From positions 6,490,753 to 6,554,752 of the forward strand of contig NZ_CP034072.1 in assembly GCF_003855255.1 (NCBI RefSeq): a DNA stretch of 64,000 bases. The letters are read 5' to 3'. The notes under the pieces are model-generated. The model was given only the letters and a program-made list of their open reading frames with translations, searched no databases and had not been told where the DNA came from. This document shows, in pieces, positions 43,114-59,656 of the stretch (position 1 is its first letter; every line of letters begins with the position of its first letter). The stretch is from Mycolicibacterium nivoides (GTDB taxonomy: Bacteria > Actinomycetota > Actinomycetes > Mycobacteriales > Mycobacteriaceae). The translations under genes and the position numbers were made by a program.

Positions 43114-43752
43114 ATGCGGCTGACCAGCAAAGCCCCACCGCGCCCGAAAATCGGCGACGAACTAGCGTGGTCCTTCATGGCGGGGGTTGTTTCACGGGAG
43201 TCGTACTTCGAAACCGGTCTGGACGTGTTGGCCGATCGCGGATACGGCGGCCTCAAACTTGCCGAAGTCTGCAACCGGCTGGGCGTGACAACCGGGTCCT
43301 TCTATCACTACTTCCCCAACTGGGCGTCCTACACGAAGGAACTGATCGCGCACTGGCGTGAGGCCCGCACCTTGCGGGTGGTGGAGATGGTGCGCGCCGA
43401 CGAGGATCCGGACCACCGCATCGAAACCCTGATCGGCGAGGCACTGGACCTGCCGTACGGCGCCGAAGCAGCGATCCGGGTGTGGAGCTCGCTGGATCCG
43501 GACGTCTACGCCGTCCAGGCCGTGGTCGACCAGCTGCGCTTCGACATCCTCTTCGAATCCGCGCTCGAGCTCATCGGCGACGAGCGCAACGCCAGGTACT
43601 TCGCGGCCTGGGGCGTCTATCTGATCGTCGGTTTCGAGCAGAGCACCCTGCCACGCGACGTCGGCGCCCTGCAGTGGATCACCACGCAGATGCGCGACGC
43701 GCTGGAGTCGGGCCGATTCAGTCCGGCCGCCGGATCCGACCAACCGGTCTAA
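43114..43752 (+). CDS. TetR-family regulator of the FUSC gene
   Basis: A 212-residue TetR protein with HTH YFETGLDVLADRGYGGLKLAEV plus RLGVTTGSFYHYFPN. The C-terminal domain contains WSSLDPDVYAVQAVVDQLR and ends near a proline-poor tail. It lies 11 bases before the FUSC-type gene, so it probably regulates that transporter. ATG 43177 (MAGVVSRES) is an alternative start that keeps the HTH. It is divergent from the other TetR gene. Confidence 0.85.
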   Translation: MRLTSKAPPRPKIGDELAWSFMAGVVSRESYFETGLDVLADRGYGGLKLAEVCNRLGVTTGSFYHYFPNWASYTKELIAHWREARTLRVVEMVRADEDPDHRIETLIGEALDLPYGAEAAIRVWSSLDPDVYAVQAVVDQLRFDILFESALELIGDERNARYFAAWGVYLIVGFEQSTLPRDVGALQWITTQMRDALESGRFSPAAGSDQPV

Positions 43753-43763
43753 CATCGGCGATC

Positions 43764-45920
43764 ATGCTGACCCCGGCCGAGATCTGGCGCGGGACGGCAG
43801 AGCGTCTCCGTGATCGGCTGCGGGACCGGGACCCCGAATACGACGCGCTGCGCCGCGCCCTGCGAGCCGCCATCGTCCTGCCCATCGCTGCCGCAGTGGG
43901 CTTCGCCCTCGGCGGCGACTCCCAGACTCCGCTGTTCGCGATCTTCGGCGCGGTATCCCTGCTCATCACCGCCGATTTTCCCGGCAACCGACCGGCCAGG
44001 GCCGTCGCGTACGGCGGCCTGGCCGTCAACGGCGCCATATTGATCGTGTTGGGCACGGTGCTCGCCCCGTATCCCTGGCTGAGCGTGGCGGCGATGTTCG
44101 TCGTCGGCATGGTGGTGTCGTTCTCCGGAGTGCTCAGTGAGATCGTCGCCGCCGGGCAGCGCGCCACGCTGCTGCTGTTCGTCCTGCCCCTGTGCACACC
44201 CGTCGGCCCGATACCCGACCGGCTGCTGGGCTGGCTGATCGCGCTCGTGATCTGCGTGCCTGCCGCGCTGTTCCTGTTCCGCCCGAAGCACCACGACGAG
44301 CTGCGCCGCTACTCGGCGCGGGTGTGCCGGCTGCTGGCCGACCGGCTCGAGGGTCAGGCCTCGGCCCGCGACGTCACCCGCGCGATGAACAAGCTGTACG
44401 AGAGCTTCCTCGGTGCGGACTATCGCCCCGTCGCCCTCAGCGCGGGCAGCCGGGCGCTGGTGCGCGTCGTCGACGACCTCGGCTGGATCTGTGACCAGGT
44501 CACCGATGACACGGGGGAACTGCTCGGCGCAATGCGCGACCCCGCGGTGCGGGTGCTGCGAGACAGCGCCGCGCTGCTGCGGATCCATGATCCAGCCGAA
44601 CGAGCCGCGCGCGGAATCGATCTGCGTGCGGCACTGGCCGAGCAGCGCACCGTAGCCCAGGGCAGTTATCGCGACGACATCACCCAGATCCTGGGTACCG
44701 CCGACGACGCCGCCGCGGTCGAACTCGGACGGGGACTGCTGGTCCGGCGCACCATCTCGGCGACCATCGCGGTCACCGGACGGGTGATCGGCAATGCGGC
44801 ACTGGCCGATGCGCGCCCGGTGTGGGCCCGGGTGCTGGGCCGGCGCCTGCCCGAAACCGGCGCAGCCGATTGGGTGATGCCCGAGGCTGTCGCCGTCGCG
44901 GCCATCGCCAAAGGTCTGGTGGCCACCCGGGCGGTGGTGCTGCGCAACAGCCTGCGCACCGGGCTGGGTTTGGCCCTGGCGGTGGCCGTCACGCACGTGT
45001 TTCCGGTGCAGCACGGATTCTGGGTGGTACTGGGCGCGATGTCTGTGCTGCGCAGCAGCGCCCTGACCACCGGGACGCGCGTGTTGCGGGCCGTGGCCGG
45101 CACCGCGATCGGGTTCGTGCTGGGTGCGGTGCTCATCGAGTTCGTCGGGGTGGACCCCGTGGTGTTGTGGATCCTGTTGCCGCTCGTGGCATTCGGGTCC
45201 GCCTATGTACCCGAAGTCGGATCGTTCATCGCCGGGCAGGCGGCGTTCACCATGATGGTGCTGATCAACTTCAATCTGATCGTGCCGACGGGATGGCGCG
45301 TGGGGCTGGTCCGGGTCGAGGATGTCGTGGTCGGCGCGATGGTCGGGATCGTGGTGTCGCTGCTGTTGTGGCCGCGCGGCGCGACAGCATCGGTGTCGAA
45401 GGCGATCGATCAGGCCCGCGCGGTTGGTGCGCAATTCCTGAAGCACGCCGTTCTCCGCGTGACCCGGGGCGCTTCCGAACAGGCCACCGACCGCGTCGTC
45501 GCACTGGGCCACGACGCGCTTTCCGCGTCCCGTACCCTCGATGATGCTGTCCGTCAATATCTTTCGGAGAACGGCGGGCCCAGCGATCAACGAGCCCCGG
45601 TGGTACGCGCCGCCAACCGGGCCAACCGGGTGCGGGCCGCGGCCGAGCTGATCGCCGACGTCGTACCCCCGCCGCTCGGTGTCTACGCCCGCACGCGCGA
45701 AGTGATCGAGGAACACGCCGCGGCCATCTGCGCCCGGCTCACCGGCGACGACGCCACCGCTGTGCTGGTACCGATCGGGGAGAGCTTCGTGGTGTCGTTG
45801 CGCGCCGAGGCCGCCGGGACGGATCTCGCCGTTTCGGCAGCCCTGCCCTTGGTGACGGCTGCCGCGCATCTCGGCGAGCTGGAGTTGCTCTACCCGCAGC
45901 CGGCCGAGTCGGTGGGTTAG
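43764..45920 (+). CDS. FUSC-family (aromatic acid exporter-like) membrane protein
   Basis: A 718-residue inner-membrane protein with two membrane blocks of about six segments each (roughly 30-170 and 395-550). These flank soluble helical regions, the layout of FUSC/ArAE (AaeB, YccS) proteins. The second block carries the family run HGFWVVLGAMSVLRSSALTTGTR. It is likely an exporter of aromatic or organic acids. It is 11 bases downstream of its TetR gene. It is also the left border of the conflict-type locus, ending 36 bases before the convergent NTPase gene. Confidence 0.85.
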   Translation: MLTPAEIWRGTAERLRDRLRDRDPEYDALRRALRAAIVLPIAAAVGFALGGDSQTPLFAIFGAVSLLITADFPGNRPARAVAYGGLAVNGAILIVLGTVLAPYPWLSVAAMFVVGMVVSFSGVLSEIVAAGQRATLLLFVLPLCTPVGPIPDRLLGWLIALVICVPAALFLFRPKHHDELRRYSARVCRLLADRLEGQASARDVTRAMNKLYESFLGADYRPVALSAGSRALVRVVDDLGWICDQVTDDTGELLGAMRDPAVRVLRDSAALLRIHDPAERAARGIDLRAALAEQRTVAQGSYRDDITQILGTADDAAAVELGRGLLVRRTISATIAVTGRVIGNAALADARPVWARVLGRRLPETGAADWVMPEAVAVAAIAKGLVATRAVVLRNSLRTGLGLALAVAVTHVFPVQHGFWVVLGAMSVLRSSALTTGTRVLRAVAGTAIGFVLGAVLIEFVGVDPVVLWILLPLVAFGSAYVPEVGSFIAGQAAFTMMVLINFNLIVPTGWRVGLVRVEDVVVGAMVGIVVSLLLWPRGATASVSKAIDQARAVGAQFLKHAVLRVTRGASEQATDRVVALGHDALSASRTLDDAVRQYLSENGGPSDQRAPVVRAANRANRVRAAAELIADVVPPPLGVYARTREVIEEHAAAICARLTGDDATAVLVPIGESFVVSLRAEAAGTDLAVSAALPLVTAAAHLGELELLYPQPAESVG

Positions 45921-45956
45921 CCGGTCAGCCCAGCGGCCAGTGCGGCATCAATGTGG

Positions 45957-48900
45957 TCATTTCCCGGGGCAGAGTTCCGCGTCATAGTCGACTGCGTCGA
46001 GATCGGAATCGTTGGAAATCAAACGATTCCATTGCTCTTCAGTAAGGTTGGATGCCAGCTTGTCGCACACCAACTCCGTCCAGGCGCCGGGTCCGGGAAT
46101 CTCCCAAATTCCCCCGCCGTGGCTGCCTGCTCGGTCCTCCACACTCATGGCGGTGACAAACACCTTCCGTCCATCGTCACTCGCAGCCACATAGCTGACC
46201 TCCCCCACCGGCCGGATGGGAACATTCATCCCGGCCTGCTCCCCGGAACTGGCGTCCCAGAAGCGGACGGAGGCATCCCGTCCCACGGACACCAGGTAGC
46301 GTCCGTCCAGGGTGTAAACAATCGAGACGATGTTCTGGATATGTCCCGTGAGCGGCTGGCCACGGTTCTGGCCGCTACTTGCGTCGTACTGCTGGATCAC
46401 GTAGTTGCCCTTGATCACGTCGACGACCGCCATCGTGTCCTCGCCACCCGGGCCATCTGCGAACGCCCAGGCGGTGATCAAATGTCCAGTGATCGGCTCG
46501 CCGACCGGCTGGAGCTGGTCGTCCCAAATCTGTACTGAATCAATACCTCTGGAATAGACCCGGTCTCCGTCCTCGCTGAACGCGACAGCACTGGGGATGT
46601 GTTCGGTATCCGCAGCGGACAGCTGGTTGCCGTTTCGCCAGTCCCACAGTCGGATCTTGCGGTCGTCACCGACGCTGGCAAGCGTGTCACCGTCAGGACT
46701 GAACGCGACCTGGCTGACACGTCCGGTGCCCGCCTGGTTCAGACTGGCGCGAACGTCTCCGGTGGCCGCGTCGATTACACGAATGCCCGCACCGGGACCG
46801 GCCAGCGCCAACCACTGCCTATCGCGGCTGATGCCAAGGGCGAGCTCGATGTCCGAGCCTTGCTCTATCTGGGCAACATCGCGCAGCGCATCCGACACCA
46901 TGGTTGGGCCCATCTGCTCGCCTGTGTCGGGGTTCAACCAGCGCAAGGTGTTGTCTCGGATGGCCGCGATTCGCGGACCGTCGCTATCGACATACAGCGC
47001 GTACCCATCAGCCTCGACTCGATAGGGCGACTTGCTGCCCGGTAACTCGGCAGCCAGCGTGGCATCCGGAGTCGCGTCCGACATCGAGAGGCTTTGCCCT
47101 GAAATCGTGGCGATCCGGTTGCCGTGGAACGCAACCTGGGTTACCGGCTCCATGAATCCGATGGTGTCGCCGATCTGCTTCTGGCCGGCGACGTCGATTA
47201 TTCTGACGTTTCCGTCGCTGCCACCCGTGACCACCCGGGTGCCGTCTGCATTGAATCCCACCGAGACGTCTCCTGGATTGCCGGACACTTCGGGACTGGG
47301 AATGTGACTCCTGACTTCGCCCGTTTCAGCATCCCAAACGCGCACCCACGCCTCGGCGCCTTCACTGCCGCCGGCCGCAATGGTCCGTCCGTCCGGACTG
47401 AAAGCGACGTTCCTCACCGAGTTGTCCAAGTTGGTCGCCGGCTGGCCGGGTGGCGTCAATCTACGCGGAACCTGCTGCGTACCATCCCATTCCATGACCG
47501 TGCCGAACCACGTTCCGATGGCCAGCGTGCGCCCGTTGGGGCTGAACTTCAGATCCCTCACATAATCACCGCTGAGCCGGTAGCGGGCGATCTCCTGACC
47601 GGTCTGCGTATTCCACAGTCGAACCGTTACCGTCAGCACATCGCCGGTGATCTCAGCGGAAGCGACTCGGTTACCTTCCGAACTAACTGCCGTACGCGTC
47701 ATCGGCACGCTACTGGCGATCGCTTCACCGACCGGTGTTCCGCTGTCCGTGTCCCAGACGTGAACATCGCTGTCGCCCTGCGCAACGACGATGTAGCGGC
47801 CGTTCCAGCTCACGGCGCGGAGTTCGGACATGCGATCCCCGAACGGTTTTCCGACCAAGTCGCCCGTCTCAGCATTGACCTTTTGAACACCTCCGTCGGC
47901 TGTTGTGAAAACCCACTTGCCATCTCCACTGAACAGACCGCCTTCAGCCGGGAGATCAACCACCTTTTCAAGCCGTGGCTTGGTGATGAGCGCCGTGAGC
48001 AGGGGGCCGATCCCCGGCTTGGTCGAGAGCTTCTGCGCGGCCAGTATCTTGCTGAAAGCCTCCATTTCGCTCCCGGAACCGGCATTGAACAACATTGACT
48101 GCCCTCGAGCGCTCAGCCGTTCAGCGAGCGCTTCGTTGAGCCGGTTCTCGGCATTTTTGGTTGACCGGATTGCCAGCAAGCCAAAGGTGAGCGCCGCGGC
48201 GCACACGAGCGCAAGCGCCACTGACAACCATTTCAGTTTCCGTCCGGCCCGTCGCTCGCGATCGAGTTCTGTGCGATGTCGCTCGGCGGCTTCTTCAAAT
48301 GTCCGCTTCTCTTGTTCTGCACGGGCCGCTACTTCTGCCTTCTCATCCTCTAATCGTCGTCTGTCGCGGTGATCACGCACTGTGCCCGTGAGCACATCGT
48401 GGATTAGCTCGATCCGTTGCGTGCCATGGTATTCCGCGAGGCGCACCAGTCGTGAATCGATCAGCTGGTCGAGTTCCTCGTGGGTCAGATGCGATGGCAC
48501 CGCATCCTCGACAGCTTCGAAATCACGGAACCCCGTCTTGGTGATCAACTGGTTCTCGATGAATTCCGCGACCTCTGGCCGCATGCCGCCCACGCACGAG
48601 ATGTAGTAGTTCGGAATCGTCGATCGGCCATGTTCCTCGATGAGCTGCTCATCGAACGTGGCTTTACCGAGGCGCTTACGTTCCTCGTTGAGCTCACGGC
48701 AGACCAAGCTGAGCAGCGTAGGTTCGACATCGGCCGCACCACGGCGGTCGACGGCACAGTCGCCGCCCCCCAATGCAGATTCGCCGCCAGGATGCAGACC
48801 CTCGCCAGCGATGATACCGACGACTTGATGCGCCAATTCAGGTGTCATCAGGTGTTGAGCCGGCTTGTACACGGCATCGAATGCTTCGTCAGTACCCAAG

Positions 48901-49607
48901 GGAAGCAGCCGCATTCGCGAGCGCCCCAGCGCAGGAATGAACCGGCACCAGTCCTCGAGGTGCGCAAGAAAATCCTCCCGCAGACTGATCAGCAGCTTGC
49001 AGTTGTGCGACCGCAAATTCAATCGACGCGCCTCAGCAGGGTCATTCTTGATTCGCGCGGCCAGATCCGCGGGTATCCGGTTCTCGGCGAGATCGGCAAG
49101 GTCGTACTTGAATGCCTCCACCTCGTCGGGTACCCCCTCGCCGAGCGTGAACAGCTCTTCGAACTGGTCGAGCAAGATCACGGGGGTGAGTAGGTAGTTC
49201 CGTGCACTCCACAGCTCGAGGTCGGCGCGATGCAGGTATTCCCATAGTGATTCGTCGTCCCCGGGAAGCACTGCATCGGGCGCTTCGGCTTGTATGGCAT
49301 TGCGGACCGCCTCGTGGAGCTGGCGGCTGAGTGACGCCGCGCCTGGCTTGAGGTCGAACCGGACATAGATCGGCAGATAGTTTTCGTTGCGCAACAACGG
49401 GAACAGGCCCGCGTGGAGCAGCGACGTCTTACCCAGGCCCGAGCGACCGAACAAGACCGTGACGGGTGCGTCGAGAACCTTCTTCAGAAGTTTTTGACAC
49501 TCATGGACGCGGCCGTAGAAGAAGCCCTGCGCGTCTTCGCAATACGACTCGAGGCCTGGCCACGGGTTGTCGGCGTCCAGCCTCATGGTGATCGTCGCGT
49601 GCGTCAT
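45957..49607 (-). CDS. Membrane-anchored nSTAND1 NTPase with WD40 repeats
   Basis: A 1216-residue signalling NTPase. The head (about 12-400) is an nSTAND1 ATPase: it starts NPWPGLESYCEDAQGFFYGR, has Walker A GRSGLGKTS (54-62) and Walker B VILLDQFEEL (143-152). An Arg/Glu-rich coiled coil (about 410-457) leads to one hydrophobic segment (458-480). From about 530 to 1190 lie repeated WD40 blades (VRNVAFSPDGRTIAAGG, VSQVAFSPDGDTLASVGDD). The chain ends in the small Cys-containing cap usual for such actinobacterial proteins. A single membrane segment would place the WD40 sensor on the opposite side from the ATPase. The start overlaps the TIR gene stop by four bases. STAND NTPases oligomerise on sensing a trigger; the trigger here is unknown. 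Confidence 0.9.
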   Translation of the reverse strand: MTHATITMRLDADNPWPGLESYCEDAQGFFYGRVHECQKLLKKVLDAPVTVLFGRSGLGKTSLLHAGLFPLLRNENYLPIYVRFDLKPGAASLSRQLHEAVRNAIQAEAPDAVLPGDDESLWEYLHRADLELWSARNYLLTPVILLDQFEELFTLGEGVPDEVEAFKYDLADLAENRIPADLAARIKNDPAEARRLNLRSHNCKLLISLREDFLAHLEDWCRFIPALGRSRMRLLPLGTDEAFDAVYKPAQHLMTPELAHQVVGIIAGEGLHPGGESALGGGDCAVDRRGAADVEPTLLSLVCRELNEERKRLGKATFDEQLIEEHGRSTIPNYYISCVGGMRPEVAEFIENQLITKTGFRDFEAVEDAVPSHLTHEELDQLIDSRLVRLAEYHGTQRIELIHDVLTGTVRDHRDRRRLEDEKAEVAARAEQEKRTFEEAAERHRTELDRERRAGRKLKWLSVALALVCAAALTFGLLAIRSTKNAENRLNEALAERLSARGQSMLFNAGSGSEMEAFSKILAAQKLSTKPGIGPLLTALITKPRLEKVVDLPAEGGLFSGDGKWVFTTADGGVQKVNAETGDLVGKPFGDRMSELRAVSWNGRYIVVAQGDSDVHVWDTDSGTPVGEAIASSVPMTRTAVSSEGNRVASAEITGDVLTVTVRLWNTQTGQEIARYRLSGDYVRDLKFSPNGRTLAIGTWFGTVMEWDGTQQVPRRLTPPGQPATNLDNSVRNVAFSPDGRTIAAGGSEGAEAWVRVWDAETGEVRSHIPSPEVSGNPGDVSVGFNADGTRVVTGGSDGNVRIIDVAGQKQIGDTIGFMEPVTQVAFHGNRIATISGQSLSMSDATPDATLAAELPGSKSPYRVEADGYALYVDSDGPRIAAIRDNTLRWLNPDTGEQMGPTMVSDALRDVAQIEQGSDIELALGISRDRQWLALAGPGAGIRVIDAATGDVRASLNQAGTGRVSQVAFSPDGDTLASVGDDRKIRLWDWRNGNQLSAADTEHIPSAVAFSEDGDRVYSRGIDSVQIWDDQLQPVGEPITGHLITAWAFADGPGGEDTMAVVDVIKGNYVIQQYDASSGQNRGQPLTGHIQNIVSIVYTLDGRYLVSVGRDASVRFWDASSGEQAGMNVPIRPVGEVSYVAASDDGRKVFVTAMSVEDRAGSHGGGIWEIPGPGAWTELVCDKLASNLTEEQWNRLISNDSDLDAVDYDAELCPGK

Positions 49608-50971
49608 GCTGCGTCGTTACGTCGGATTTCCCGGATTGCGGAGATCACATCCTTGGTCAGGTCCGCGTCCGGCTCGCCGCCGGGCGCATGACCGAACTGG
49701 AAGTCCTTGAACTCCCGCGGCACTTGCTTGAAGCGGTTCGTGTCGCCGTCGTAGTCATCGTCGATGACGACCGGCATGATGAAGCGCTGCCCCAGAATGC
49801 CGCGCGTTCGCTCTACGGCCTCGTTCCATTCCCTGAAGACGTAGCTTTCTTTCTTCCGTTCGGTGTTCGCGGAAATTACCGGGACGAACAAGCTGACAGT
49901 CTGACGAATACATCTCAGAATCTCGTCTTCCCAGGCGTCTCCGGTGTGCAGCTCTCGCTCGTCGAGCCAGGCCACCCCGCCAAGTCTGGTGATCGCGTCG
50001 TACAGACGCCGTGCCGCGACCACATCCTCGTGCTTGTAACTGATGAAGATCTCCGCGTTGTCCAGCGATGGCGGTTCCGTGTCTTGAGGTCCGGGCGGGG
50101 AGGGTGCACGAGGACTCGGCTGTCTGGCCTCCCAGCGGCTACGCAACTGCGCGACGAACTCGGTCGGCTCCATGTCCAACTGCTTGACCATCGTTCGGCG
50201 GCAGTAGGTCGAGAAGAAGCTCGACAGCGACGGTTCCCGCGAGTTCGCGGCGAAGAAGAACGGTTTGCCGCCGAGCGACAGCCGTTTGTCGCTGGACAGC
50301 CGGACGAGAAACCGCCCGAACCAGTCGGGGATCTGGCATCCGATGAACAGCATCGGTTGATGCTTCAACGGGTAGTCGAGCCAGTCAGGAAGGCTGGCTT
50401 TCTCCGTCAGTAGTGCGTGGATCCACTCCAGTCGGTCTTCCTCGTGGATCGCATACTCCGGCATGGCCGCGGTTTGACCGAACAGACTCAGCACGACGGT
50501 ATCGGCCGGCCCTGGCTCTCTGGCATTCCGCTCCTGGTCCGGGGTGGACTTATTCGGGGAGAACGACACCTCACGCACCGGCCGACCGCGGCTGGCACTC
50601 AACGCCTTTGCGAGCAATCGGTCGGGCGTGGTCGTCACGAACAACCTCAGATCATCGATGGCCGCGAGGTCTCTCAGCGCGTCGCCGGGTTCCGGATCGA
50701 GGTCCACGACAATTTCGTCGATCACGCCGTACAGGTCGTCGACCTCGTCTCGACCGCGCTCGCGCAGAAACGCGGCCACCGCCTGATCGGTGGTCGTGAC
50801 CCCGGGCGGAACCGTCAGCCCATACCTCTCAGTGAGCCGTTCGCCCACGAGGGTCGTCAATCTCTGCTCAGACCCGTCGACCTCGACCACAGTGACATCT
50901 GGACCCACGACGGGCACCAGCACCTGATGCCGGATATGAGAGAGAAGGCTGCCCCAGAATTCGTCGTTCAT
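49604..50971 (-). CDS. SIR2-like / TIR fusion protein
   Basis: A 455-residue two-domain protein. The N-terminal SIR2-like domain (about 10-260) shows LVPVVGPDVTVV at the nucleotide-loop position and LFIGCQIPDWFGR near its end. The catalytic Asn and His of SIR2 NADases appear lost: the TTNxD-type motif reads TTTPD (113-117) and the LHG motif reads LFG (163-165). A Pro-rich linker (286-302) leads to a TIR domain (306-450): IFISYKHEDVVAARRLYDAI, WLDERELHTGDAWEDEILRCI, with a candidate catalytic Glu at 348, placed as in SARM1-type NADases. TIR is therefore the likely NAD-cleaving or signal-making effector. It is translationally coupled to the NTPase gene. Confidence 0.88.
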   Translation of the reverse strand: MNDEFWGSLLSHIRHQVLVPVVGPDVTVVEVDGSEQRLTTLVGERLTERYGLTVPPGVTTTDQAVAAFLRERGRDEVDDLYGVIDEIVVDLDPEPGDALRDLAAIDDLRLFVTTTPDRLLAKALSASRGRPVREVSFSPNKSTPDQERNAREPGPADTVVLSLFGQTAAMPEYAIHEEDRLEWIHALLTEKASLPDWLDYPLKHQPMLFIGCQIPDWFGRFLVRLSSDKRLSLGGKPFFFAANSREPSLSSFFSTYCRRTMVKQLDMEPTEFVAQLRSRWEARQPSPRAPSPPGPQDTEPPSLDNAEIFISYKHEDVVAARRLYDAITRLGGVAWLDERELHTGDAWEDEILRCIRQTVSLFVPVISANTERKKESYVFREWNEAVERTRGILGQRFIMPVVIDDDYDGDTNRFKQVPREFKDFQFGHAPGGEPDADLTKDVISAIREIRRNDAA

Positions 50972-51087
50972 GTCGAATTGCTCGATTCAAATTGCGCCAG
51001 AAAACTACCGGCGTCGCTGGGGTGGCGCAGCACCAGCGCGGGGCGACCAGGGAACGCTCCAGGCACAAACCAATGGTCCTCGCCCAT
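50968..51087 (-). CDS. Candidate 39-aa protein coupled to the TIR gene
   Basis: An open frame of 39 residues starts with ATG at 51087 and ends with a TGA that overlaps the TIR start codon (ATGA). It holds HWFVPGAFPGRPALVLRHP followed by a short helix-like segment ending FLAQFE. The exact overlap and codon use similar to the neighbours make it plausible as a real gene or as a coupling leader. No strong ribosome-binding site is seen. No family is recognised. Small constant components are known in some nucleotide-signalling conflict loci, but similarity to them is not shown. Confidence 0.45.
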   Translation of the reverse strand: MGEDHWFVPGAFPGRPALVLRHPSDAGSFLAQFESSNST

Positions 51088-51103
51088 GGGATGGCGGCGT
51101 AGC

Positions 51104-51122
51104 GTAGTCGACTACTCGAATT
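51104..51122 (-). promoter_or_regulatory. Shared 19-bp motif, copy A (upstream of the TIR/nSTAND arm)
   Basis: Read on the minus strand it is AATTCGAGTAGTCGACTAC. The last 12 bases GTAGTCGACTAC (51104-51115) are a perfect palindrome. It lies 16 bases upstream of the 39-aa frame and points towards it. Copy B lies at 51913-51931 on the other strand in front of the metacaspase arm. A common regulator is inferred. Confidence 0.65.
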
Positions 51123-51145
51123 CGGCGGGAACTGTCGGGGTCAAT

Positions 51146-51886
51146 TCACTCAACACCCGCACCGAGAACCGCCTCGAGTAATTCAGCAAGGCATTCCGGC
51201 GCATCCGCCGGCACCGAACGGATCAGCCCGGACCGAACCAGCGCGGCAACCGGTTCATCAACCAACTCACCTGCCAACGCATTCGCGAAAGCGTCGGCTG
51301 TCCGTCCCGATCCGGCGATCGCCACGACGGGGCGTCCGGCTTTGACGCTGAGCTCGACATCGTCGTAGGCGATATCGCCGCCGTTGATCAGCACAGTGAT
51401 CGAAGGTGCACTGTCAGCGAGAACGGTTGCGGCCTCAGCGATCCACGGGGCTTCCGCACCCCACTTGTCACCGGGTACGACCAGGAAATGGGTGTGCCGA
51501 GGCTCCAGCTCAAAGCCCTCTCCACGGTCAGGCGCGCAGGCACCGGGCAACTGCACGGTGCCCTCCGCGACCACACCCAGGAGCGGAAACGCGGCACCTG
51601 CGCGAACCTCGCCGAAGAGCTGCATGACGCCGGCCAGCGTTCCGCCGTCCACACCGACCGCTCCGTACTTCTCCATCACAGGCGCAATCCCCGACGCGAA
51701 CAGTGGGCGCAGGCGGTCCATGTCAGTGGCATCGAGCCCGGCAGCACCACCCACCACCACCACAGTCGGTCGTGGCGGAAACAGCTCCAAAGCGGTGAGC
51801 ACCGAGCGCAATTCCGCAGTTTCCGCGACGCGTGCCGCAAATGCACGGCCGGTGTTCGGAAAATCCAACCGGAACGGTGACGTCAC
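51146..51886 (-). CDS. LSDAT/SLOG (TRPM-type) nucleotide-ligand protein
   Basis: A 246-residue protein matching the prokaryotic 'SLOG in TRPM' (LSDAT_prok) family. The motifs come in the family order: VVVVGGAAGLDATDMD, GVDGGTLAGVMQLFGEVRA, FPLLGVVAEGTVQLPG, HTHFLVVPGDKWGAEAPW, ITVLINGGDIAYDDVELSV and VVAIAGSGRTADA. SLOG domains bind or process nucleotide-derived ligands. They are known partners of SIR2, TIR, caspase and other effectors in conflict systems. GTG 51886 has GGAGAGGA upstream; the frame starts at a TTG (51913) that lies inside the shared motif, so the shorter form is preferred. Same strand as the TIR/NTPase arm. Confidence 0.85.
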   Translation of the reverse strand: MTSPFRLDFPNTGRAFAARVAETAELRSVLTALELFPPRPTVVVVGGAAGLDATDMDRLRPLFASGIAPVMEKYGAVGVDGGTLAGVMQLFGEVRAGAAFPLLGVVAEGTVQLPGACAPDRGEGFELEPRHTHFLVVPGDKWGAEAPWIAEAATVLADSAPSITVLINGGDIAYDDVELSVKAGRPVVAIAGSGRTADAFANALAGELVDEPVAALVRSGLIRSVPADAPECLAELLEAVLGAGVE

Positions 51887-51912
51887 GGGTGGCCCGTCCT
51901 CTCCGCGCCGCA

Positions 51913-51931
51913 AATTCGAGTACCCGACTAC
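51913..51931 (+). promoter_or_regulatory. Shared 19-bp motif, copy B (between SLOG and metacaspase genes)
   Basis: AATTCGAGTACCCGACTAC, 17 of 19 identical to copy A, points towards the metacaspase arm and also lies 27 bases upstream of the divergent SLOG start. The palindrome of copy A is damaged by two bases here. The rest of the divergent gap (51932-52089) holds a possible 17-codon leader and a strong ribosome-binding site. Confidence 0.65.
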
Positions 51932-52008
51932 TCACGACCCCTACGCGTCACGTGCACATACTGCAATTGCCCACCTGACGTTTCGCTGTCTCAGGAGAGG
52001 ATACTGCG

Positions 52009-52062
52009 ATGCCCGAGCCGGCCTGCCGCTTCTCCGGACCGGAATTTCACCATCAATCCTGA
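52009..52062 (+). CDS. Candidate 17-codon leader upstream of the metacaspase gene
   Basis: ATG 52009 follows TCAGGAGAGG, a good ribosome-binding site, and the 17-residue frame stops at 52062, 27 bases before the metacaspase start with its own AAAGGAGAG. It might act as a regulatory upstream frame. There is no evidence for a functional peptide, so it is offered as a possibility. Confidence 0.3.
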   Translation: MPEPACRFSGPEFHHQS

Positions 52063-52089
52063 CCGAGGCCCAATGCAAAGGAGAGCACC

Positions 52090-52935
52090 ATGACCAAGAA
52101 AGCGGTGCTCATCGGCGTCAATCGTTACCGAATTCCAGGCAACGACTTACGCGGCTGCGTTCCCGATGTGAAAAACATGGCCAATCTGCTTCAGCGACAG
52201 TACGAATTCGAGTCCGGCGATATTTCCTTGATCACGGATTTCGACGCCACCAAAGAAGCCATCCAGAGCGCCGTCACGGGGTTGATCCGAGAGGCTCGGC
52301 GCGGCGATGTCTTGCTCGTGCACTACTCCGGTCACGGGTCGAACGTGCCCGATGACAACGGGGATGAGGACGACAACCGCGACGAGATACTGTGCCCGAC
52401 CGACCTCGACTGGAACGACCCGCTGCGCGACGACTGGCTCCGCAATGTCTTCGACGGCCTGGGTGCCGGCGTGAGCCTCACCGTGATCACCGACTGCTGC
52501 CATTCCGGCACCATCACGCGGGCCCTCGAACCGCCCGACGCTCCTCTGATCGAGCGATACCTGCCGAGCCCGTGGGACCTGGAGGCGGTGGAGTCCGGGC
52601 GCAGCCTGACCGGGAAAACGCGGGGAACTCCCCGCCGCAAGTCCGCGGCCGACCACGGCACCAGCGACATCGTTCACGTCGACATTCCCGAGGTGCTCAT
52701 CTCTGGCTGCCGGGCTGACCAGACCTCGGCCGACGCCGCGATCGGCGGTGGCTTCGCCGGAGCACTGACCTATAACCTGGTCGAGGCGCTGACCGAATCC
52801 GCCACCCCGCTGTCATATCGGGAACTGCACGACCAGACCAGCACGAAGCTGAAACGCGGCCGCTACGAGCAGGTTCCACAACTCGAAGGCAGCGAAGCAC
52901 GCCTCGAGCAGCCCTTCCTGTCGCCCCTCGACTAG
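52090..52935 (+). CDS. Metacaspase-type cysteine protease (peptidase C14)
   Basis: A 281-residue caspase-fold protease. It begins KKAVLIGVNRYR with LRGCVPDVKNMANLL as in metacaspases. The catalytic His is in VHYSGHGSNVPD (His 82) and the catalytic Cys in ITDCCHSGT (Cys 137, the second of the pair). Between them an Asp-rich loop (about 88-98) may bind Ca2+. Metacaspases cut after Arg or Lys. There is no attached sensor domain, so it is probably activated by a partner in the locus. It is 12 bases upstream of the giant CHAT gene, likely one operon. Confidence 0.92.
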   Translation: MTKKAVLIGVNRYRIPGNDLRGCVPDVKNMANLLQRQYEFESGDISLITDFDATKEAIQSAVTGLIREARRGDVLLVHYSGHGSNVPDDNGDEDDNRDEILCPTDLDWNDPLRDDWLRNVFDGLGAGVSLTVITDCCHSGTITRALEPPDAPLIERYLPSPWDLEAVESGRSLTGKTRGTPRRKSAADHGTSDIVHVDIPEVLISGCRADQTSADAAIGGGFAGALTYNLVEALTESATPLSYRELHDQTSTKLKRGRYEQVPQLEGSEARLEQPFLSPLD

Positions 52936-52947
52936 CACTGTCGAACC

Positions 52948-55900
52948 ATGACCATCAAGCTGCAGATTTCCGGTCTCAAGGACACGGCCGACACCCATTC
53001 GGTACGCGGAGGCATGCCCGGCATCGAAGCCGCAAATCCCGACACCGGCCTGCTCAACGTGATCCAGGTGGTCGACTCCTACAACCTCTCTCCGTCGGCC
53101 CGCGAGCAAAGTCCGAAACCCCAAGGTATCTCGGTGGAGGACGACGCCGTACTCGAGATCGAGATCGAAGGCGGGATCACCACGTGGGTCTCGGCCAAGC
53201 GGTATTACGAGGACGCCCCGCTGCTCAAACCCGAAGCGATGGTCGGCGACGCCGTCAGCGTCAACTCGCTGCCGCGAGCTTCGGAGCGGGGCGTCAAAGA
53301 GTGGCTGACCACTCGGCTTCGGGTGCTGCGATTGAATCCTGACGCCATCACCGACAAGCTCACCGATCCCACGCAATGGCCGATCGATCTCGTCGACGAA
53401 GCCAAAGACCTCGGCGTCAACCTGCTGGCGAAGATCCCGGCCTGGTACGCCACCAAAGCGTTGATCAGAATGATCGAGAACAATCTCGAACCCGGCCCCG
53501 GGCTGTACAAGTGGGACGACGCCACAGGTAAGACCGGGACACCGGCTCAGGCCGTCAATTTGAGCGACTTCGACGCCGACAAGCGCATTTTGGTCTTCAT
53601 CCATGGCACTGCGTCCTCCACCCGCGGTAGCTTCGGCGCCTTCCTCAGCACCGAAGCGCAACCACAGTGGCAAGAGTTGCAGCGGCGGTTCGACAACAAC
53701 ATCTACGCCTTCGAACACCGCACCTTGAGCGAAAGCCCGATCGACAATGCCATCAAGCTACTCAGGGTGTTACCCCGCAATGCCCGGGTCAGCATCGTGT
53801 CGCATTCACGCGGCGGACTGGTCGGCGACCTCGTCACGCTGACGTCGATCAACACCGAACTGGTCGCGAACTTCAAACGTGGCAACTCCGATCTGGACCT
53901 GGCAGACCTGCACGACCGCAGACAACTCGGCCGGCTCGCGGAACTCGTTGCTCAGAAACAGCTTCGGGTGGAACGGTTCGTGCGCTGCGCCTCGCCGTCC
54001 CGCGGCACGCTTCTGGCGGGCGAGAACATCGATGTCTTCCTATCGGTGCTGACCAACCTCGTCGGTTTCATTCCGGGCGTCGGCGGAACGCCGCTCTATG
54101 AAGTGGTCAAGCGGATCGCACTTGAGATCGTCAAGAATCGGACCGTGCCGTCGCTGGTGCCCGGGCTCGAGGCGATGATGCCGCAATCACCGCTGGTCGC
54201 GCTGCTCAACAATCTGACCGATCCCGCACTCGGGGCGATGGGGGTCATCGCCGGAGATATCCAGGGCGGCAACTGGCTCAAGAAGATCGGAGTGTTCGCC
54301 AGCGATCACATCATCTATGAAGGTCGGGACAACGATCTCGTCGTCAATACCGACGCGATGTTTCACGGGGCCCGCCGGACGGTCGCCGGCTACATATTCG
54401 ATCAGGGCGCCGACGTCAGCCACTTCAACTACTTCAGCAATCCGAGCACGCGTGGGGCGCTGGTCGAGTGGCTCGCGGCGACGGACATGCGTCCGGCGAT
54501 CTTCCGGGACATCGTGACCGAAGCGCTCGAGCCGGTGCCGATGCTGCGGTCACTCCAGACCCGTGCCAACGCAGATCAGCCGATTGTCTTTGTCCTTCCG
54601 GGAATCATGGGCTCTCACCTCAATGTCGGCGAGCGTGAGGTGTGGATGCGCTACCTCGCCTTGTTACGCGGTGGGCTCGGCGATCTCGCCGACGTCACCG
54701 CGGAGAATGTGCGCCCCGTCGCCTTGGTCGGCGATGGCTATCGCGAGCTGTGCGAGTTCCTGCAGAACACACACGAAGTCATCCCGTTCGCCTACGACTG
54801 GCGCCGGTCGGTGACCGCCGCGGCGCACTTGCTGATCGTCGAGCTCGAGAACGCCTTACGACGAACGCAACAGCCGGTACGCATCATCGCCCACAGCATG
54901 GGCGGGCTGGTGGTGCGCGCGATGATCGCGCAAGCACCCGACCTGTGGGACCGCATCTGCAAACGCGACGGCGGGCGCCTAATCATGCTCGGCACCCCGA
55001 ACCGCGGCTCGTACGACATCGTCGAATCCTTGCTGGGCACTGCAGCAACCGTGCAGAAACTAGCACTGCTGGACCTCACCCACGACACGGCGAGAATCGT
55101 GGACATCATCTCGAAGTTCCCCGGCGTACTCGAGTTGCTGCCCGACGACGAGCGTTACTTCACCGTGCCGCACTGGCAGGAGTACCAGAAGAAGCTCCGC
55201 GGGTCGGCCATTCCCGGTGAAGCGCTGCTGAACGACGCGCGCACGACGCACGACGCCATCAAAGACCACCTCTCGGGTCTACCCCACCCCGATCGGGTGC
55301 ACTACGTGGCAGGAACCTCGCCACGCACCGTAAAGGGCATCGACCGCGTCGGCGACCGGATAGTCCTGGAATGTACGACGGAAGGCGACGGTCGGGTCAC
55401 GTATGCCTCGGGCCGCCTGCCCGGCGTCCGCACCTGGTACATGGATGCAGTGCACGGCGACCTGGCGTCTCACGCGCCGAGCTTCCTCGCGCTGCAGGAC
55501 CTACTCGATTCCGGTACCACCTCACGACTCTCGGAGACTCCGCTCAGCTCAGCACGCGGAGGCCCGCAGGACTTTCGGGCCCTGCCCGAACCGGTGCTCT
55601 ATCCGACAGAGACGTCGCTGGCCGCTGACCTCCTGGGAAAGTCCGCGCAGAAGCCGTATCAGGAAGGTGCGCAGCCGAGCTTCCGGGTATCAGTGGTCCA
55701 CGACGACCTGCGCTACGCGCGCTATCCCATTGTGGTGGGGCACTATGAGGGCGACACCATCATCGGCGCCGAGGCCCAATTGGACGGGCTGCTGCGGGGC
55801 GCGCTGACGGAGCGCTACGCGCTCGGCCTCTACCCCGGCGTGTTCGGATCTGTGGCGGTGGTCTTACGCAAGCCGACGGCGCTACAGAAGGCGCTGGCCC

Positions 55901-58674
55901 TGCCAACCGGTGCGATTGTCGTAGGCCTCGGCAAATGGGGCGACCTCAGCGCGGGCCAACTCTGCGATCTGCTTCGACGTGCCGCACTCCAGTACGTTCT
56001 CGAACGCCGCGACGGTCTGTCCGCATCACCGGATGACGACTCCGCAACGGAGAAGATCGGCTTGTCGGTGCTACTGGTCGGCGGCAATTCGACCGCCAAC
56101 ATCGCGGTGGGGGACTCGGTCGGCGCCATTCTGCGCGCTATCGGCCAGGCCAATCGCGAACTCGCCGACGGTAATAGCACCCCCCTCACCATCCAGGAAG
56201 TCGAGATCGTCGAGCTCTACGCCGACACGGCGATCGAGGCCGCGCATGCGGTCAAGCGCCTGGCTCCGCTGATCGGCAAGGAGCTCGAGACCGAGATCGA
56301 GGCGGCTCCCCTGCTACGGCGCGGCCGCGAGGGCCGTCGGCGCCTGACCGCCTCGGCAGGTCGCCAGCACGCCTGGCGCCGGTGGGAGGTCAGCGTGGTG
56401 GTGCCGCCGCACAAGTCCGAACCGGCGTGCCTGCCCAAGCCGTTGGCCGACCGGCTCAAGCGCGCGGTGCTCGAATCGGACAACGCTGACCCCGAACTCC
56501 TGGCCGCGCTGGCGGAATTGGCGATCAGCGCACCTGCCGGCCGGGCTGAAGCGCACCGTCAGATCAAGTTCCTCACCCTGTCGGACCGCGCCCGCGCCGA
56601 GGCAACCGCGCAGCAGCGGCAGCCCGAGCTGGTGGACCGGCTGATCAAGGACTCGATCTCCCAAACCCGATTCAGGGCAGACGAATCGCGTGTGCTGTTC
56701 GAACTCACGGTTCCCAACGAGCTCAAGTCCGGGCTCGCACAGGTCGACAACCTGGTGCTCGTCCTGGACGCCGAAACCGCCGCCTATCCATGGGAACTGA
56801 TGAGCGCCGGCGACAAGGCTCTCTGTCTCGACAAGGCTCTGGTACGGCAGTTACAGACCTCGAACTACCGCCCACAGATCGGCGCACGGGCAGGCACGGC
56901 GGCTTACGTCGTTGGCGATCCGCTGGTCAGCCCACCGTTCAATCAATTGCCCGGCGCGATGGCCGAAGCCAGTGCCGTGTACGACCTACTGCGCGGGAGA
57001 TTCGACGTCGACAAGCCAGTGACCAAGCCGACGGCGCTCGAAGTGCTCGCCGGGCTGTACCGAAAGCCCTACCGCGTCGTGCATTTGGCCGGCCACGGCT
57101 ACTACGAGCCGCCCGTGACAGCGGACGGCAAGGCCCGTAGCGGGATGGTGCTCGACAACGGGGTGTTTCTGACCGCTGTCGAGGTCGGCCAGATGCAGCA
57201 GGTACCGGAATTGGTCTTCCTCAACTGCTGCCACATCGGCCAGACCGGACCCGAGGCACCAGCGCAGAGGCCCACTGTCGAGTTCAATCGACTGGCCGCC
57301 AGCGTTTCCCGCGAACTGATCGAGATGGGCGTCCGCGCGGTGGTAGCCGCCGGTTGGGCTGTCAAGGATGACGCCGCCAAGGAGTTCGCCCAGAAATTCT
57401 ACGAATGCATGCTCGGCGGAGAGACTTTCGGCTACGCGCTCAAGGCCGCTCGCGGCCACACCCACGAAGAGTTCCGCGACAGCAACACCTGGGGCGCATA
57501 CCAAGCGTATGGCGACCCGGACTACCGGCTCGATCCCACCGCTACCGGAACTACGGCGGCAGGGCCGGGGCGGGTGGACGTGGCCGAGTTCATCGAAGCG
57601 GTGAGCTACGTCGGCCGCAAACCGGAAGCTGGTTCGGCGCCCACGATTGCGCCCAGTGAAGCCGCCCAGCAACTCAACGCGCTGGTGAAGGAATGCCCCG
57701 CCGACTGGCTTGAGCAAACCGATGTCCAGATGGCGATCGGCTACGCCTACGGCAATCTGAGGCGGTTCGAAGATGCCCGCCGCTATCTGATCGCCTCCCT
57801 GGCCGGAGAGGGCGAAACATCAACCACGACGATGCGTGCCGTTGAACAACTCGCCAATTTCGAGGCACGCATGGCCAACGATCTCGCCGACAGCGAGGCC
57901 GACCGCGCCCGGGAGTTGTACGGGGAGGCCATCGCGCGCCTCGAACGGCTGCTCGAGGTGTCCAAGACCGCGGAGCGGTACAACCTGCTCGGTAGCGCTT
58001 ACAAGCGTCGTGCCGCCTCCGAACCGACCGCCAGGGCCGCCGCGGAGATGCTGTGTCAAGCGCGCGAGCAATACCGTCAGGCGCATCTGCTCACCCTGCA
58101 GCGTCAATGCCTCGATCCCTACTCCGTGCTCAACTGGTTGACCCTGACGGCAATTCTCGACCAACAGGTGCCGGACGCCGATGCGTTGATCGATCGTTGT
58201 GAGGCCACCGCGCGCGAGCGATTCTCGGTCGACCGCACGTTCTATACCGCAGTCGCGATCGCCGACGCAGCCTTGGTGCGCGCGCTCAGGTCGGGCAGGC
58301 TCGGGCGGAATGGCCATGCCGGACAACAGGAAGTAGCCCGATTGCTGACCCGTTTCGAAGAGGTGGTTCAGCTGGCGGCACCTACTCAGAGCAACCTCGA
58401 TTCGGTCTGTACGCACCTCGACGTCACCAGCAGGCTCTTGACAAAGATCCATCCCAACCGCGCCAGCAGCCGGATCACAGTGGCTCACCTCGACGAGCTG
58501 CGCCGGCGAATCGGCGGTGATCAGCGCAACGGGCAGAGCCCCGAACCCAAGGTCTCCATGAACCAGACCAACGGGTCCTCCCCGAACCAGACCAACGGGT
58601 CGTCCCCCAAAACGACTGCCGGACAGCCTAAGCCGCCCAGTCGCAGACCGGGCGGCGTCGGTATTTCCGGGTAG
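52948..58674 (+). CDS. Giant double alpha/beta-hydrolase + CHAT protease + TPR protein
   Basis: A 1908-residue protein. (1) Residues 1-200: unrecognised, starts with a beta-rich segment. (2) About 210-510: alpha/beta hydrolase with VFIHGTASS and nucleophile Ser 287 (VSHSRGG), possible His 492. (3) About 540-860: second hydrolase related to lecithin:cholesterol acyltransferase/lipases, with VLPGIMGSHLN and Ser 650 (IAHSMGG). (4) About 900-1240: linker region with no recognised domain. (5) About 1250-1535: CHAT (caspase HetF associated with TPR) protease with VVHLAGHGYYEP (His 1383) and LVFLNCCHIGQTG (Cys 1428). (6) About 1590-1840: TPR-like helices. The last 40 residues have an NQTNGSSP repeat and are Pro-rich. 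One protein thus joins two lipase-like units and a protease. The start has only a weak ribosome-binding site. Confidence 0.9.
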   Translation: MTIKLQISGLKDTADTHSVRGGMPGIEAANPDTGLLNVIQVVDSYNLSPSAREQSPKPQGISVEDDAVLEIEIEGGITTWVSAKRYYEDAPLLKPEAMVGDAVSVNSLPRASERGVKEWLTTRLRVLRLNPDAITDKLTDPTQWPIDLVDEAKDLGVNLLAKIPAWYATKALIRMIENNLEPGPGLYKWDDATGKTGTPAQAVNLSDFDADKRILVFIHGTASSTRGSFGAFLSTEAQPQWQELQRRFDNNIYAFEHRTLSESPIDNAIKLLRVLPRNARVSIVSHSRGGLVGDLVTLTSINTELVANFKRGNSDLDLADLHDRRQLGRLAELVAQKQLRVERFVRCASPSRGTLLAGENIDVFLSVLTNLVGFIPGVGGTPLYEVVKRIALEIVKNRTVPSLVPGLEAMMPQSPLVALLNNLTDPALGAMGVIAGDIQGGNWLKKIGVFASDHIIYEGRDNDLVVNTDAMFHGARRTVAGYIFDQGADVSHFNYFSNPSTRGALVEWLAATDMRPAIFRDIVTEALEPVPMLRSLQTRANADQPIVFVLPGIMGSHLNVGEREVWMRYLALLRGGLGDLADVTAENVRPVALVGDGYRELCEFLQNTHEVIPFAYDWRRSVTAAAHLLIVELENALRRTQQPVRIIAHSMGGLVVRAMIAQAPDLWDRICKRDGGRLIMLGTPNRGSYDIVESLLGTAATVQKLALLDLTHDTARIVDIISKFPGVLELLPDDERYFTVPHWQEYQKKLRGSAIPGEALLNDARTTHDAIKDHLSGLPHPDRVHYVAGTSPRTVKGIDRVGDRIVLECTTEGDGRVTYASGRLPGVRTWYMDAVHGDLASHAPSFLALQDLLDSGTTSRLSETPLSSARGGPQDFRALPEPVLYPTETSLAADLLGKSAQKPYQEGAQPSFRVSVVHDDLRYARYPIVVGHYEGDTIIGAEAQLDGLLRGALTERYALGLYPGVFGSVAVVLRKPTALQKALALPTGAIVVGLGKWGDLSAGQLCDLLRRAALQYVLERRDGLSASPDDDSATEKIGLSVLLVGGNSTANIAVGDSVGAILRAIGQANRELADGNSTPLTIQEVEIVELYADTAIEAAHAVKRLAPLIGKELETEIEAAPLLRRGREGRRRLTASAGRQHAWRRWEVSVVVPPHKSEPACLPKPLADRLKRAVLESDNADPELLAALAELAISAPAGRAEAHRQIKFLTLSDRARAEATAQQRQPELVDRLIKDSISQTRFRADESRVLFELTVPNELKSGLAQVDNLVLVLDAETAAYPWELMSAGDKALCLDKALVRQLQTSNYRPQIGARAGTAAYVVGDPLVSPPFNQLPGAMAEASAVYDLLRGRFDVDKPVTKPTALEVLAGLYRKPYRVVHLAGHGYYEPPVTADGKARSGMVLDNGVFLTAVEVGQMQQVPELVFLNCCHIGQTGPEAPAQRPTVEFNRLAASVSRELIEMGVRAVVAAGWAVKDDAAKEFAQKFYECMLGGETFGYALKAARGHTHEEFRDSNTWGAYQAYGDPDYRLDPTATGTTAAGPGRVDVAEFIEAVSYVGRKPEAGSAPTIAPSEAAQQLNALVKECPADWLEQTDVQMAIGYAYGNLRRFEDARRYLIASLAGEGETSTTTMRAVEQLANFEARMANDLADSEADRARELYGEAIARLERLLEVSKTAERYNLLGSAYKRRAASEPTARAAAEMLCQAREQYRQAHLLTLQRQCLDPYSVLNWLTLTAILDQQVPDADALIDRCEATARERFSVDRTFYTAVAIADAALVRALRSGRLGRNGHAGQQEVARLLTRFEEVVQLAAPTQSNLDSVCTHLDVTSRLLTKIHPNRASSRITVAHLDELRRRIGGDQRNGQSPEPKVSMNQTNGSSPNQTNGSSPKTTAGQPKPPSRRPGGVGISG

Positions 58675-58681
58675 TTGGCTG

Positions 58682-59656
58682 TCAGCTCAGGGGCCGGTGC
58701 GGCATGAGCGCATTCGGCGGGATCTGGCCGAACTTGCCCGCCTGGTAGTCCTCCAGCGCCTGGATGAGCTCGGACTTGGAGTTCATCACGAACGGGCCGT
58801 AGTGGAAGACCGGTTCCCGAATCGGCTGACCGCCCAGCAGCAGAACCTCCATCGCGGGCCGGTTCGAGTCCTGAGTTCCCTCGGCCGAGACCGTGATCCG
58901 GTCACCGGGGCCCAGCACTGCGAGTTGGCCCTGATGGATCGGGTGGCCGACCGGGCCGACGCTGCCGCGTCCGCTCAGTACGTAGACCAGTGCGTTGAAG
59001 TCGCGGTTCCACGGCAGGTTGAGCTGCGCACCCGGTTCGATCGTGGCGTGCGCCATGGTGATCGGGGTGTGCGTGCTGCCCGGGCCCTGCGCACCATCGA
59101 TCTCGCCGGCGATGATCCGGACCAAGGCGCCGCCGTCCTGCGAGGACAGCAGTTTCGCGTCGGGACCCTCGATGGCCTGGTAGCGCGGCGTCGCGAACTT
59201 GTCCTTCTTGGGCAGGTTCACCCACAGCTGGATGCCGTGGAAGGTGCCGCCGTTCTCGACCAGTTCGGCCGGCGGCGTCTCGATGTGCAGGATGCCGGAT
59301 CCGGCCGTCATCCATTGGGTGGCGCCGTCGGTGATCAGACCGCCGCCGCCATGTGAATCCTGATGGGCGAAGCGGCCGTCGATCATGTAGGTGACAGTTT
59401 CGAACCCGCGGTGCGGGTGCCAATCGGTGCCCCGCGGTTCGCCGGGCTGGTACTCCACCTCACCCATCTGGTCCATGTGGACGAACGGGTCGAGGTCGGC
59501 GGCGCTGACTCCACCGAATGCGCGCACGACGGGGAATCCCTCGCCTTCGTACCCGCGCGGGCCGGTCGTGATCGAACGGACCGGGCGTTCGGTGTCCGAC
59601 GCCTGAGCTGCCGCGATACGGGGCAGGGTCAAGGTGTCTGCGGTGATGGCTGGCAT
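58682..59656 (-). CDS. Pirin-family protein
   Basis: Bicupin of 324 residues, longer than typical bacterial pirins of about 230-290. Metal-site motifs: FVHMDQMGEVEY, DWHPHRGFETVTYMIDGRFAHQDSHGG, ITDGATQWMTAGSGILHIE, with the His and Glu ligands of the N-terminal cupin. The C-terminal cupin follows (about 200-300). Bacterial pirins act as quercetin dioxygenases or as redox-linked regulators. It ends eight bases from the giant CHAT gene (convergent) and is the right border of the locus. Confidence 0.9.
   Translation of the reverse strand: MPAITADTLTLPRIAAAQASDTERPVRSITTGPRGYEGEGFPVVRAFGGVSAADLDPFVHMDQMGEVEYQPGEPRGTDWHPHRGFETVTYMIDGRFAHQDSHGGGGLITDGATQWMTAGSGILHIETPPAELVENGGTFHGIQLWVNLPKKDKFATPRYQAIEGPDAKLLSSQDGGALVRIIAGEIDGAQGPGSTHTPITMAHATIEPGAQLNLPWNRDFNALVYVLSGRGSVGPVGHPIHQGQLAVLGPGDRITVSAEGTQDSNRPAMEVLLLGGQPIREPVFHYGPFVMNSKSELIQALEDYQAGKFGQIPPNALMPHRPLS

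Follow-up and report, generated by a model that had tools for sequence, protein, structure and literature searches.

Do the five conflict-type genes lodged between a FUSC and a pirin gene in Mycolicibacterium nivoides form a single immune system and, if so, of what kind? The window (the whole 64,000-nucleotide stretch of DNA that was analysed) belongs to a 6.9-Mb host genome assembled as a single contig. By its LSDAT relatives, the genome sits close to M. nivoides (97% identity) and its kin, the M. fortuitum complex. An earlier reading of its letters (the original prediction) had proposed here a defence locus combining LSDAT/SLOG, SIR2/TIR, nSTAND-WD40, metacaspase and lipase-CHAT genes. ORF and Pfam analysis confirmed the five genes with their families, positions and strands (Table 1), and the Pfam domains support their membership of conflict-type families. 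The island consists of two divergent arms between FUSC and pirin, which are themselves convergent. The minus arm runs from LSDAT_prok through SIR2-TIR to nSTAND1-helix-WD40, the last two genes overlapping by 4 nt, and the plus arm comprises the caspase and, after a 12-bp gap, a giant protein. To the features already described, our analysis added a TPR-S domain, a macro/PepA-N-like domain, a hydrophobic helix in the nSTAND protein and relatives in which the site is empty or only partly occupied.

Table 1. Genes and intergenic region of the island and its flanks, in window coordinates
Feature	Position	Strand	Support
FUSC_2 flank gene	43482-45920	+	Pfam
nSTAND1 + WD40 repeats gene	45957..49607	-	Pfam nSTAND1, E 3e-30
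SIR2-TIR gene	49604..50971	-	Pfam SIR2_2, 1.7e-5 (barely above cut-off); TIR_2, 3e-14
LSDAT_prok gene	ORF 51146-51913; 51146..51886 with GTG start	-	Pfam, 1e-59
Intergenic region between divergent arms, 203 bp	51887..52089	.	
Caspase-like C14 protease gene	52090..52935	+	Pfam Peptidase_C14, 1e-31
Giant, 1908 aa	52948..58674	+	Pfam DUF7379, 2e-36; LCAT, 1e-8; CHAT, 1e-29; TPR-S, 2e-11
Pirin flank gene	58682-59656	-	Pfam

The locus is accessory. Across the genus, LSDAT was found in 10/396 genomes (one a fragment) and a close SIR2-TIR, full-length or cut by a contig end, in 6/396, with matches of any kind in 52, mostly to the TIR part only. Caspase relatives occurred in 11 of the 396 genomes, close ones only in the window genome and congener G319; a full-length giant was present in 2/198 relatives (the window genome and G077) and any match to it in 14/198, with at most two candidates scored per genome. 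At class level, LSDAT_prok exceeded its cut-off in 3/394 genomes. An empty-site search of 20 genomes recovered a good pirin orthologue in 15; in five of these, FUSC and pirin lie side by side, with 10, 10, 16, 22 and 94 bp between their aligned ends (stop codons included), one carries ~1.8 kb of other sequence at the site and nine lacked FUSC within the 18 kb retrieved. In a FUSC+pirin tree, the empty-site genome G353 is nearest to the window (support 83/94) and five-gene G319 comes next (87/98). The predicted accessory presence and empty site were borne out. The lower GC content that had been noted was likewise recovered (island, 63.2%; remainder of window, 67.2%).

Between FUSC and nSTAND, where the island begins on the left, a 25-bp stretch (45924..45948, +) imperfectly repeats the pirin 3′ end in direct orientation (22/25), matching 58681..58705 (+) at the right edge; its score of 35 compares with maxima of 24 in 300 shuffles and 27 in 300 other window stretches. 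No such copy was detected at the corresponding junction in the short G319 and M. senegalense stretches examined. It is a possible recombination scar. A phage origin was rejected, as no relatives were confirmed in viral contigs with the LSDAT alignment or with a second one (0/48 and 0/56 candidate stretches). Plasmid relatives were distant only, all at <60% identity (LSDAT, 4 records; SIR2-TIR, 1; giant, 20).

Comparison of related genomes revealed two separable modules, one comprising SIR2-TIR and nSTAND1-WD40 and the other LSDAT, caspase and giant. M. senegalense carries LSDAT, caspase and giant at the same site (78, 86 and 85% identity, respectively), with no SIR2-TIR or nSTAND match in the 20.8 kb fetched. 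G077 carries the giant (73%) without the other four, plus a caspase remnant directly upstream (34-aa open frame; L034 9740-10010). These two genomes rule out the five genes as an indivisible unit. In the remnant, the two ends of the caspase gene are fused into 34 codons (an internal deletion); because this frame precedes the giant, the G077 state appears to be derived by deletion, which disfavours the giant-only state as ancestral.

The original expectation that the five genes co-occur as a unit elsewhere was therefore upheld only in part: there is no single unit in M. senegalense and G077, but the ensemble recurs in a distant congener, G290. Contig 103 of this genome encodes, in order, an Eco57I-type methylase, a Tle1-like lipase, an ion channel, SIR2-TIR, nSTAND1-WD40, an 874-aa protein, a patatin, LSDAT, a caspase, a CHAT-TPR-S protein and a TIR (identity to the window: SIR2-TIR 59-60%, NTPase 64-65%, LSDAT 57%, caspase 32%), with no FUSC or pirin in the 39 kb fetched. 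Its stand-alone 971-aa CHAT-TPR-S protein aligns co-linearly with the giant over residues 900-1850 (identity of 76% in CHAT, 61% in the domain that precedes it and 44% in TPR-S). Lipase and CHAT-TPR-S are separate genes in G290 and fused into one giant here, which by Rosetta-stone reasoning suggests joint action of lipase and protease. The 874-aa protein between nSTAND and patatin (L077:14130-16754, -) has no Pfam match and by eye resembles a membrane-attack/perforin-type pore former.

Elsewhere, G319 retains all five genes in unchanged order, and a close SIR2-TIR adjoins a same-family nSTAND in 6/6 genus genomes (contig ends cut some). LSDAT adjoins a patatin lipase in 5/10 genus genomes (G290, G058, G341, G403 and G282) and a TPR-S protein in three (G403, G282 and G439), and lies near a TIR-nSTAND1-WD40 protein in three (G058, G339 and G341), these neighbours being identified by Pfam on one member per kind and by similarity for the others. 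Among 396 congeners, LSDAT occurs in 5/6 genomes with a close SIR2-TIR vs 5/390 without (Fisher p=2e-8, or 2e-5 once the window genome and G319 are dropped), a statistic that assumes that both surveys drew the same genomes (the handles agree), ignores phylogeny beyond their omission and includes no control defence gene pairs. G041 (89% complete) has SIR2-TIR without an LSDAT match, G439 has the two on separate short contigs and G403 carries the two modules ~40 kb apart. The G403 interval from the SIR2-TIR/nSTAND module to the LSDAT/patatin module contains a FUSC relative (64%; L102 4203-6305); no pirin match was found in the stretches fetched, which stop 20 kb short of the contig end.

The original prediction treated both TIR and SIR2 as NAD enzymes, of which TIR is the likelier candidate. 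TIR Glu381 is invariant in 27/27 aligned homologues, marking a candidate activity, and in an HMM alignment it coincides with a Glu of the SPARTA TIR that we take to be catalytic. The SIR2 half is ThsA-like by fold in the predicted model, and fold matches of the fusion include the SIR2-STAND protein AVAST5. The canonical SIR2 motif is TTNxD/LHG; at the Asn and His positions, placed from this motif and model strand positions, we read T115 (27/27 homologues) and F/Y164 (23 and 4 of 27), respectively. An example of a competent pair is N133/H171 of DSR2. Since the canonical positions read T and F/Y in 27/27 homologues, the SIR2 half is probably not an NADase, and it is TIR, not SIR2, that we would expect to turn NAD+ into a product of ADP-ribose type.

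The nSTAND1 protein comprises an NTPase (residues 1-400, with Walker A and B motifs at 54 and 143, respectively; PF20703, 106 bits vs cut-off 27.1), a hydrophobic helix at ~460-480 (by eye) and one or more WD40 propellers. The hydrophobic segment separates NTPase from WD40, and the protein is probably membrane-tethered. Identity between the window and G319 DNA (250-bp bins, 43-60 kb) is 79-95% except at 46000..48250 (54-61%) and in the bin at 48250 (74%). The low-identity block (-) is the WD40 half of nSTAND and ends near FUSC. At the protein level, the two NTPases (1-400) are 90% identical, whereas the part after residue 480 reaches only 32%, no better than that between window and G290 (31%), even though the G290 SIR2-TIR is only 60% identical; across six nSTAND pairs compared, the NTPase ranges over 63-90% and the rest over 29-43%. 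The WD40 half appears to have been replaced between close species, and because the edges of the block are sharp, recombination is favoured over very fast divergence. Divergence restricted to the WD40 half is as expected of a trigger sensor, and we propose the protein as trigger sensor and switch. The exchange would also provide a natural experiment, with NTPase and TIR unchanged and WD40 different.

On the receiving side, LSDAT (PF18171; 201.6 bits vs cut-off 25.4) has a GTG start at 51886 supported by homologue alignment and is a sequence relative of the TRPM2 N-terminal domain (E 1.2e-13), presumably MHR1/2. We propose this SLOG-fold protein as a putative sensor of an ADP-ribose-type signal; Arg204 is replaced by Gly in 2/17 homologues. 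The caspase has His82 and Cys137 and scores 53.6 bits against NF047832, under the cut-off of 140. The giant contains, in order, a DUF7379 lipase-like domain (Ser287), an LCAT-like domain (Ser650), a macro/PepA-N-like domain (~912-1114), CHAT (His1383, Cys1427) and TPR-S. The CHAT His/Cys pair is invariant in 42/42 aligned rows and the first lipase Ser in all 31 full-length giants among them, and the second lipase Ser is replaced in 12/31. The macro fold before CHAT, which Pfam does not mark in the window's giant, is present in the predicted model, where its best matches are leucine aminopeptidase N-domains. This domain is a second candidate signal receiver, one that the original prediction lacked, but given those matches its binding of ADP-ribose must not be assumed. 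One architecture is kept in the giant family from mycobacteria to proteobacteria; of 7992 candidates scored, 723 are relatives of the CHAT-TPR-S half (E<=0.001), and homologues of the giant lie on Paracoccus and Azotobacter plasmids without the other four genes annotated nearby (2/20 match records read; gene tables incomplete). The locus would give a testable role to this large family.

We propose, with a probability of about 0.5, that this is an abortive-infection-type locus of two co-occurring, separable modules in which a TIR signal from the sensor module is read by the receiver/effector module. The WD40 repeats of the membrane-anchored nSTAND1 would recognise a trigger, possibly a phage, whereupon the NTPase would assemble and activate SIR2-TIR, its overlapping-gene partner. 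TIR would turn NAD+ into a product, presumably of ADP-ribose type, and its reader would be LSDAT, a SLOG of TRPM2 type, the giant's macro-like domain, or both. The CHAT protease and caspase would then switch on and release the lipase-like domains, and the cell would be killed or arrested. This order (STAND, TIR, nucleotide, sensor, protease/lipase) is plausible, and the presence at the locus of a TIR with one member, by fold or family, of each receiver class favours it, after Thoeris and VMAP precedents. Cross-talk between the modules would be its weakest link. In support of the abortive-infection reading, we count the domains and folds, the invariant TIR Glu and CHAT His/Cys, the first lipase Ser, the G290 ensemble (with a Tle1-like lipase and a methylase of R-M type on the same stretch), the co-occurrence of LSDAT and SIR2-TIR, the WD40-confined divergence and the empty site. 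Counted against a composite are M. senegalense, G077, the plasmid giants, G041, G403, G439, the second lipase Ser, LSDAT Arg204 and the aminopeptidase-like macro matches.

The chief rival, which we regard as a real possibility without thinking it probable, is that two independent defence systems share an integration hot spot without cross-talk: SIR2-TIR and nSTAND1-WD40 would kill by TIR NAD+ depletion, and caspase and giant would have in LSDAT their own regulator, responsive to a different signal. The second module without the first at the same site, SIR2-TIR without LSDAT in G041, the distance between modules in G403 and genes that are tight within arms while the arms themselves diverge all fit this reading. 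The genus-wide co-occurrence and the compact G290 ensemble speak against it, although defence-island clustering could also yield these. Cell death or a stress response (envelope/NAD) might instead be regulated for purposes other than phage defence, with the giant as a protease-controlled envelope-lipid hydrolase. Such a role would agree with the constancy of the giant's architecture and its occurrence without the other four; we consider it improbable in view of the patchy presence among closest relatives, the sensor exchange and the restriction-modification-type genes near relatives in G290 and Azotobacter. Gene content varies between relatives, as chance neighbours gathered in a variable region would also predict, but the related gene sets at different sites (G290), the overlapping genes, the five-gene order kept in G319 and the 6/6 SIR2-TIR/nSTAND pairing make this hardly credible.

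If the abortive-infection reading of a composite locus is true, the reach of TIR signalling would widen, in mycobacteria, to include a SLOG sensor resembling TRPM2 and a lipase giant gated by a protease. A more elaborate version, which we offer as speculation and consider rather doubtful, unites the three receiver classes of Thoeris (SLOG, macro and caspase-like protease) under one SIR2-TIR/nSTAND trigger whose WD40 sensor can be exchanged; the same TIR product would be read by LSDAT and by the giant's macro-like domain as a two-key gate, upon which CHAT would cut and release the fused lipases. This would amount to bacterial signal-gated, protease-activated lipase immunity.

In line with the original prediction, PADLOC-DB (2023) recognised no complete system, returning only partial matches to TIR, CHAT, WD40-region and caspase models and none for LSDAT, and NCBIfam named none of the five proteins above cut-off. 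No description of the combination was found in the literature searched, the coverage of which was partial. With Avs/STAND sensors, including SIR2-STAND AVAST5, the locus shares a STAND NTPase with C-terminal repeats and a SIR2-fold partner; it differs in its nSTAND1 class with hydrophobic helix and WD40, its effector in a gene of its own and a sensor half exchanged between close species. Burroughs and colleagues reportedly described LSDAT/SLOG nucleotide-centric systems in 2015, with which related loci share LSDAT_prok next to RyR, TPR-S, TIR or DUF4231 partners; LSDAT lies beside patatin in half of the genus genomes that have it, but beside caspase and the lipase-CHAT giant here. In comparison with the TPR-CHAT of Craspase and with SAVED-CHAT, there is no CRISPR effector or SAVED domain, and N-terminal lipases and a macro-like domain are found instead.

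In Thoeris, TIR products are matched to receivers, with 3'cADPR acting on SLOG, His-ADPR on macro and N7-cADPR on caspase-like receivers in types I, II and IV, respectively (PMC11204291, PMC12847820). The locus shares with any Thoeris a TIR with a putative catalytic Glu (E381, 27/27), but its SLOG is of LSDAT/TRPM type, its SIR2 Asn/His are apparently replaced and an nSTAND1-WD40 partner is added. ThsA of type I fuses SIR2 to SLOG, whereas SIR2 is fused to TIR here and LSDAT is a separate gene; type II has a TM-macro ThsA, whereas the macro/PepA-N-like domain is joined here to CHAT in a 1908-aa protein; and type IV has TIR and a caspase-like effector in one operon, whereas they lie here on divergent strands and the caspase occurs without SIR2-TIR in M. 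senegalense. VMAP caspases always neighbour an alpha/beta hydrolase, as stated by Kaur et al. 2020 (PMC7159879), and the locus shares this pairing with EACC1/VMAP conflict systems. No EACC1, MoxR or vWA family was among the Pfam and NCBIfam matches of the five proteins, and the EACC1 gene of the EACC1 system is 5′ of the caspase, a place held here by a divergent LSDAT upstream. We conclude that this is a real, accessory, composite conflict locus and a variant of known STAND/TIR nucleotide-signalling immunity; the sensor exchange, the macro-like-CHAT-lipase giant and the putatively degenerate SIR2 appear to be new, no description having been found in the partially covered literature.

Equal-sized contigs across the LSDAT, SIR2-TIR and giant match lists (119/120, 119/120 and 120/120 listed rows, respectively) hint at shared contigs: LSDAT/giant 17487 and 79563, SIR2-TIR/giant 18536 and 518124, and LSDAT/SIR2-TIR 98094, 5071 and 2323. 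Between 0.005 and 0.50 are expected per length class, and the 2323 pair may be chance. The Azotobacter plasmid giant homologue (L149) adjoins restriction-modification and Fic genes. Upstream of LSDAT in G339, 77 aa resemble patatin (39% identity; L099 11080-11334) and are perhaps a remnant. TPR-S proteins adjoining LSDAT (L049:12043-14085, L098 and L101) have N-terminal parts that by eye resemble SLOG and TIR. On a Chloroflexota plasmid, an LSDAT match within a protein annotated as DUF4231 (L146 5980-7857) may represent a sensor-pore fusion. Two distant LSDAT loci (L054 and L036) have RyR-domain neighbours, one of them with TrkA_N, an echo of TRPM/RyR ADP-ribose-type signalling.
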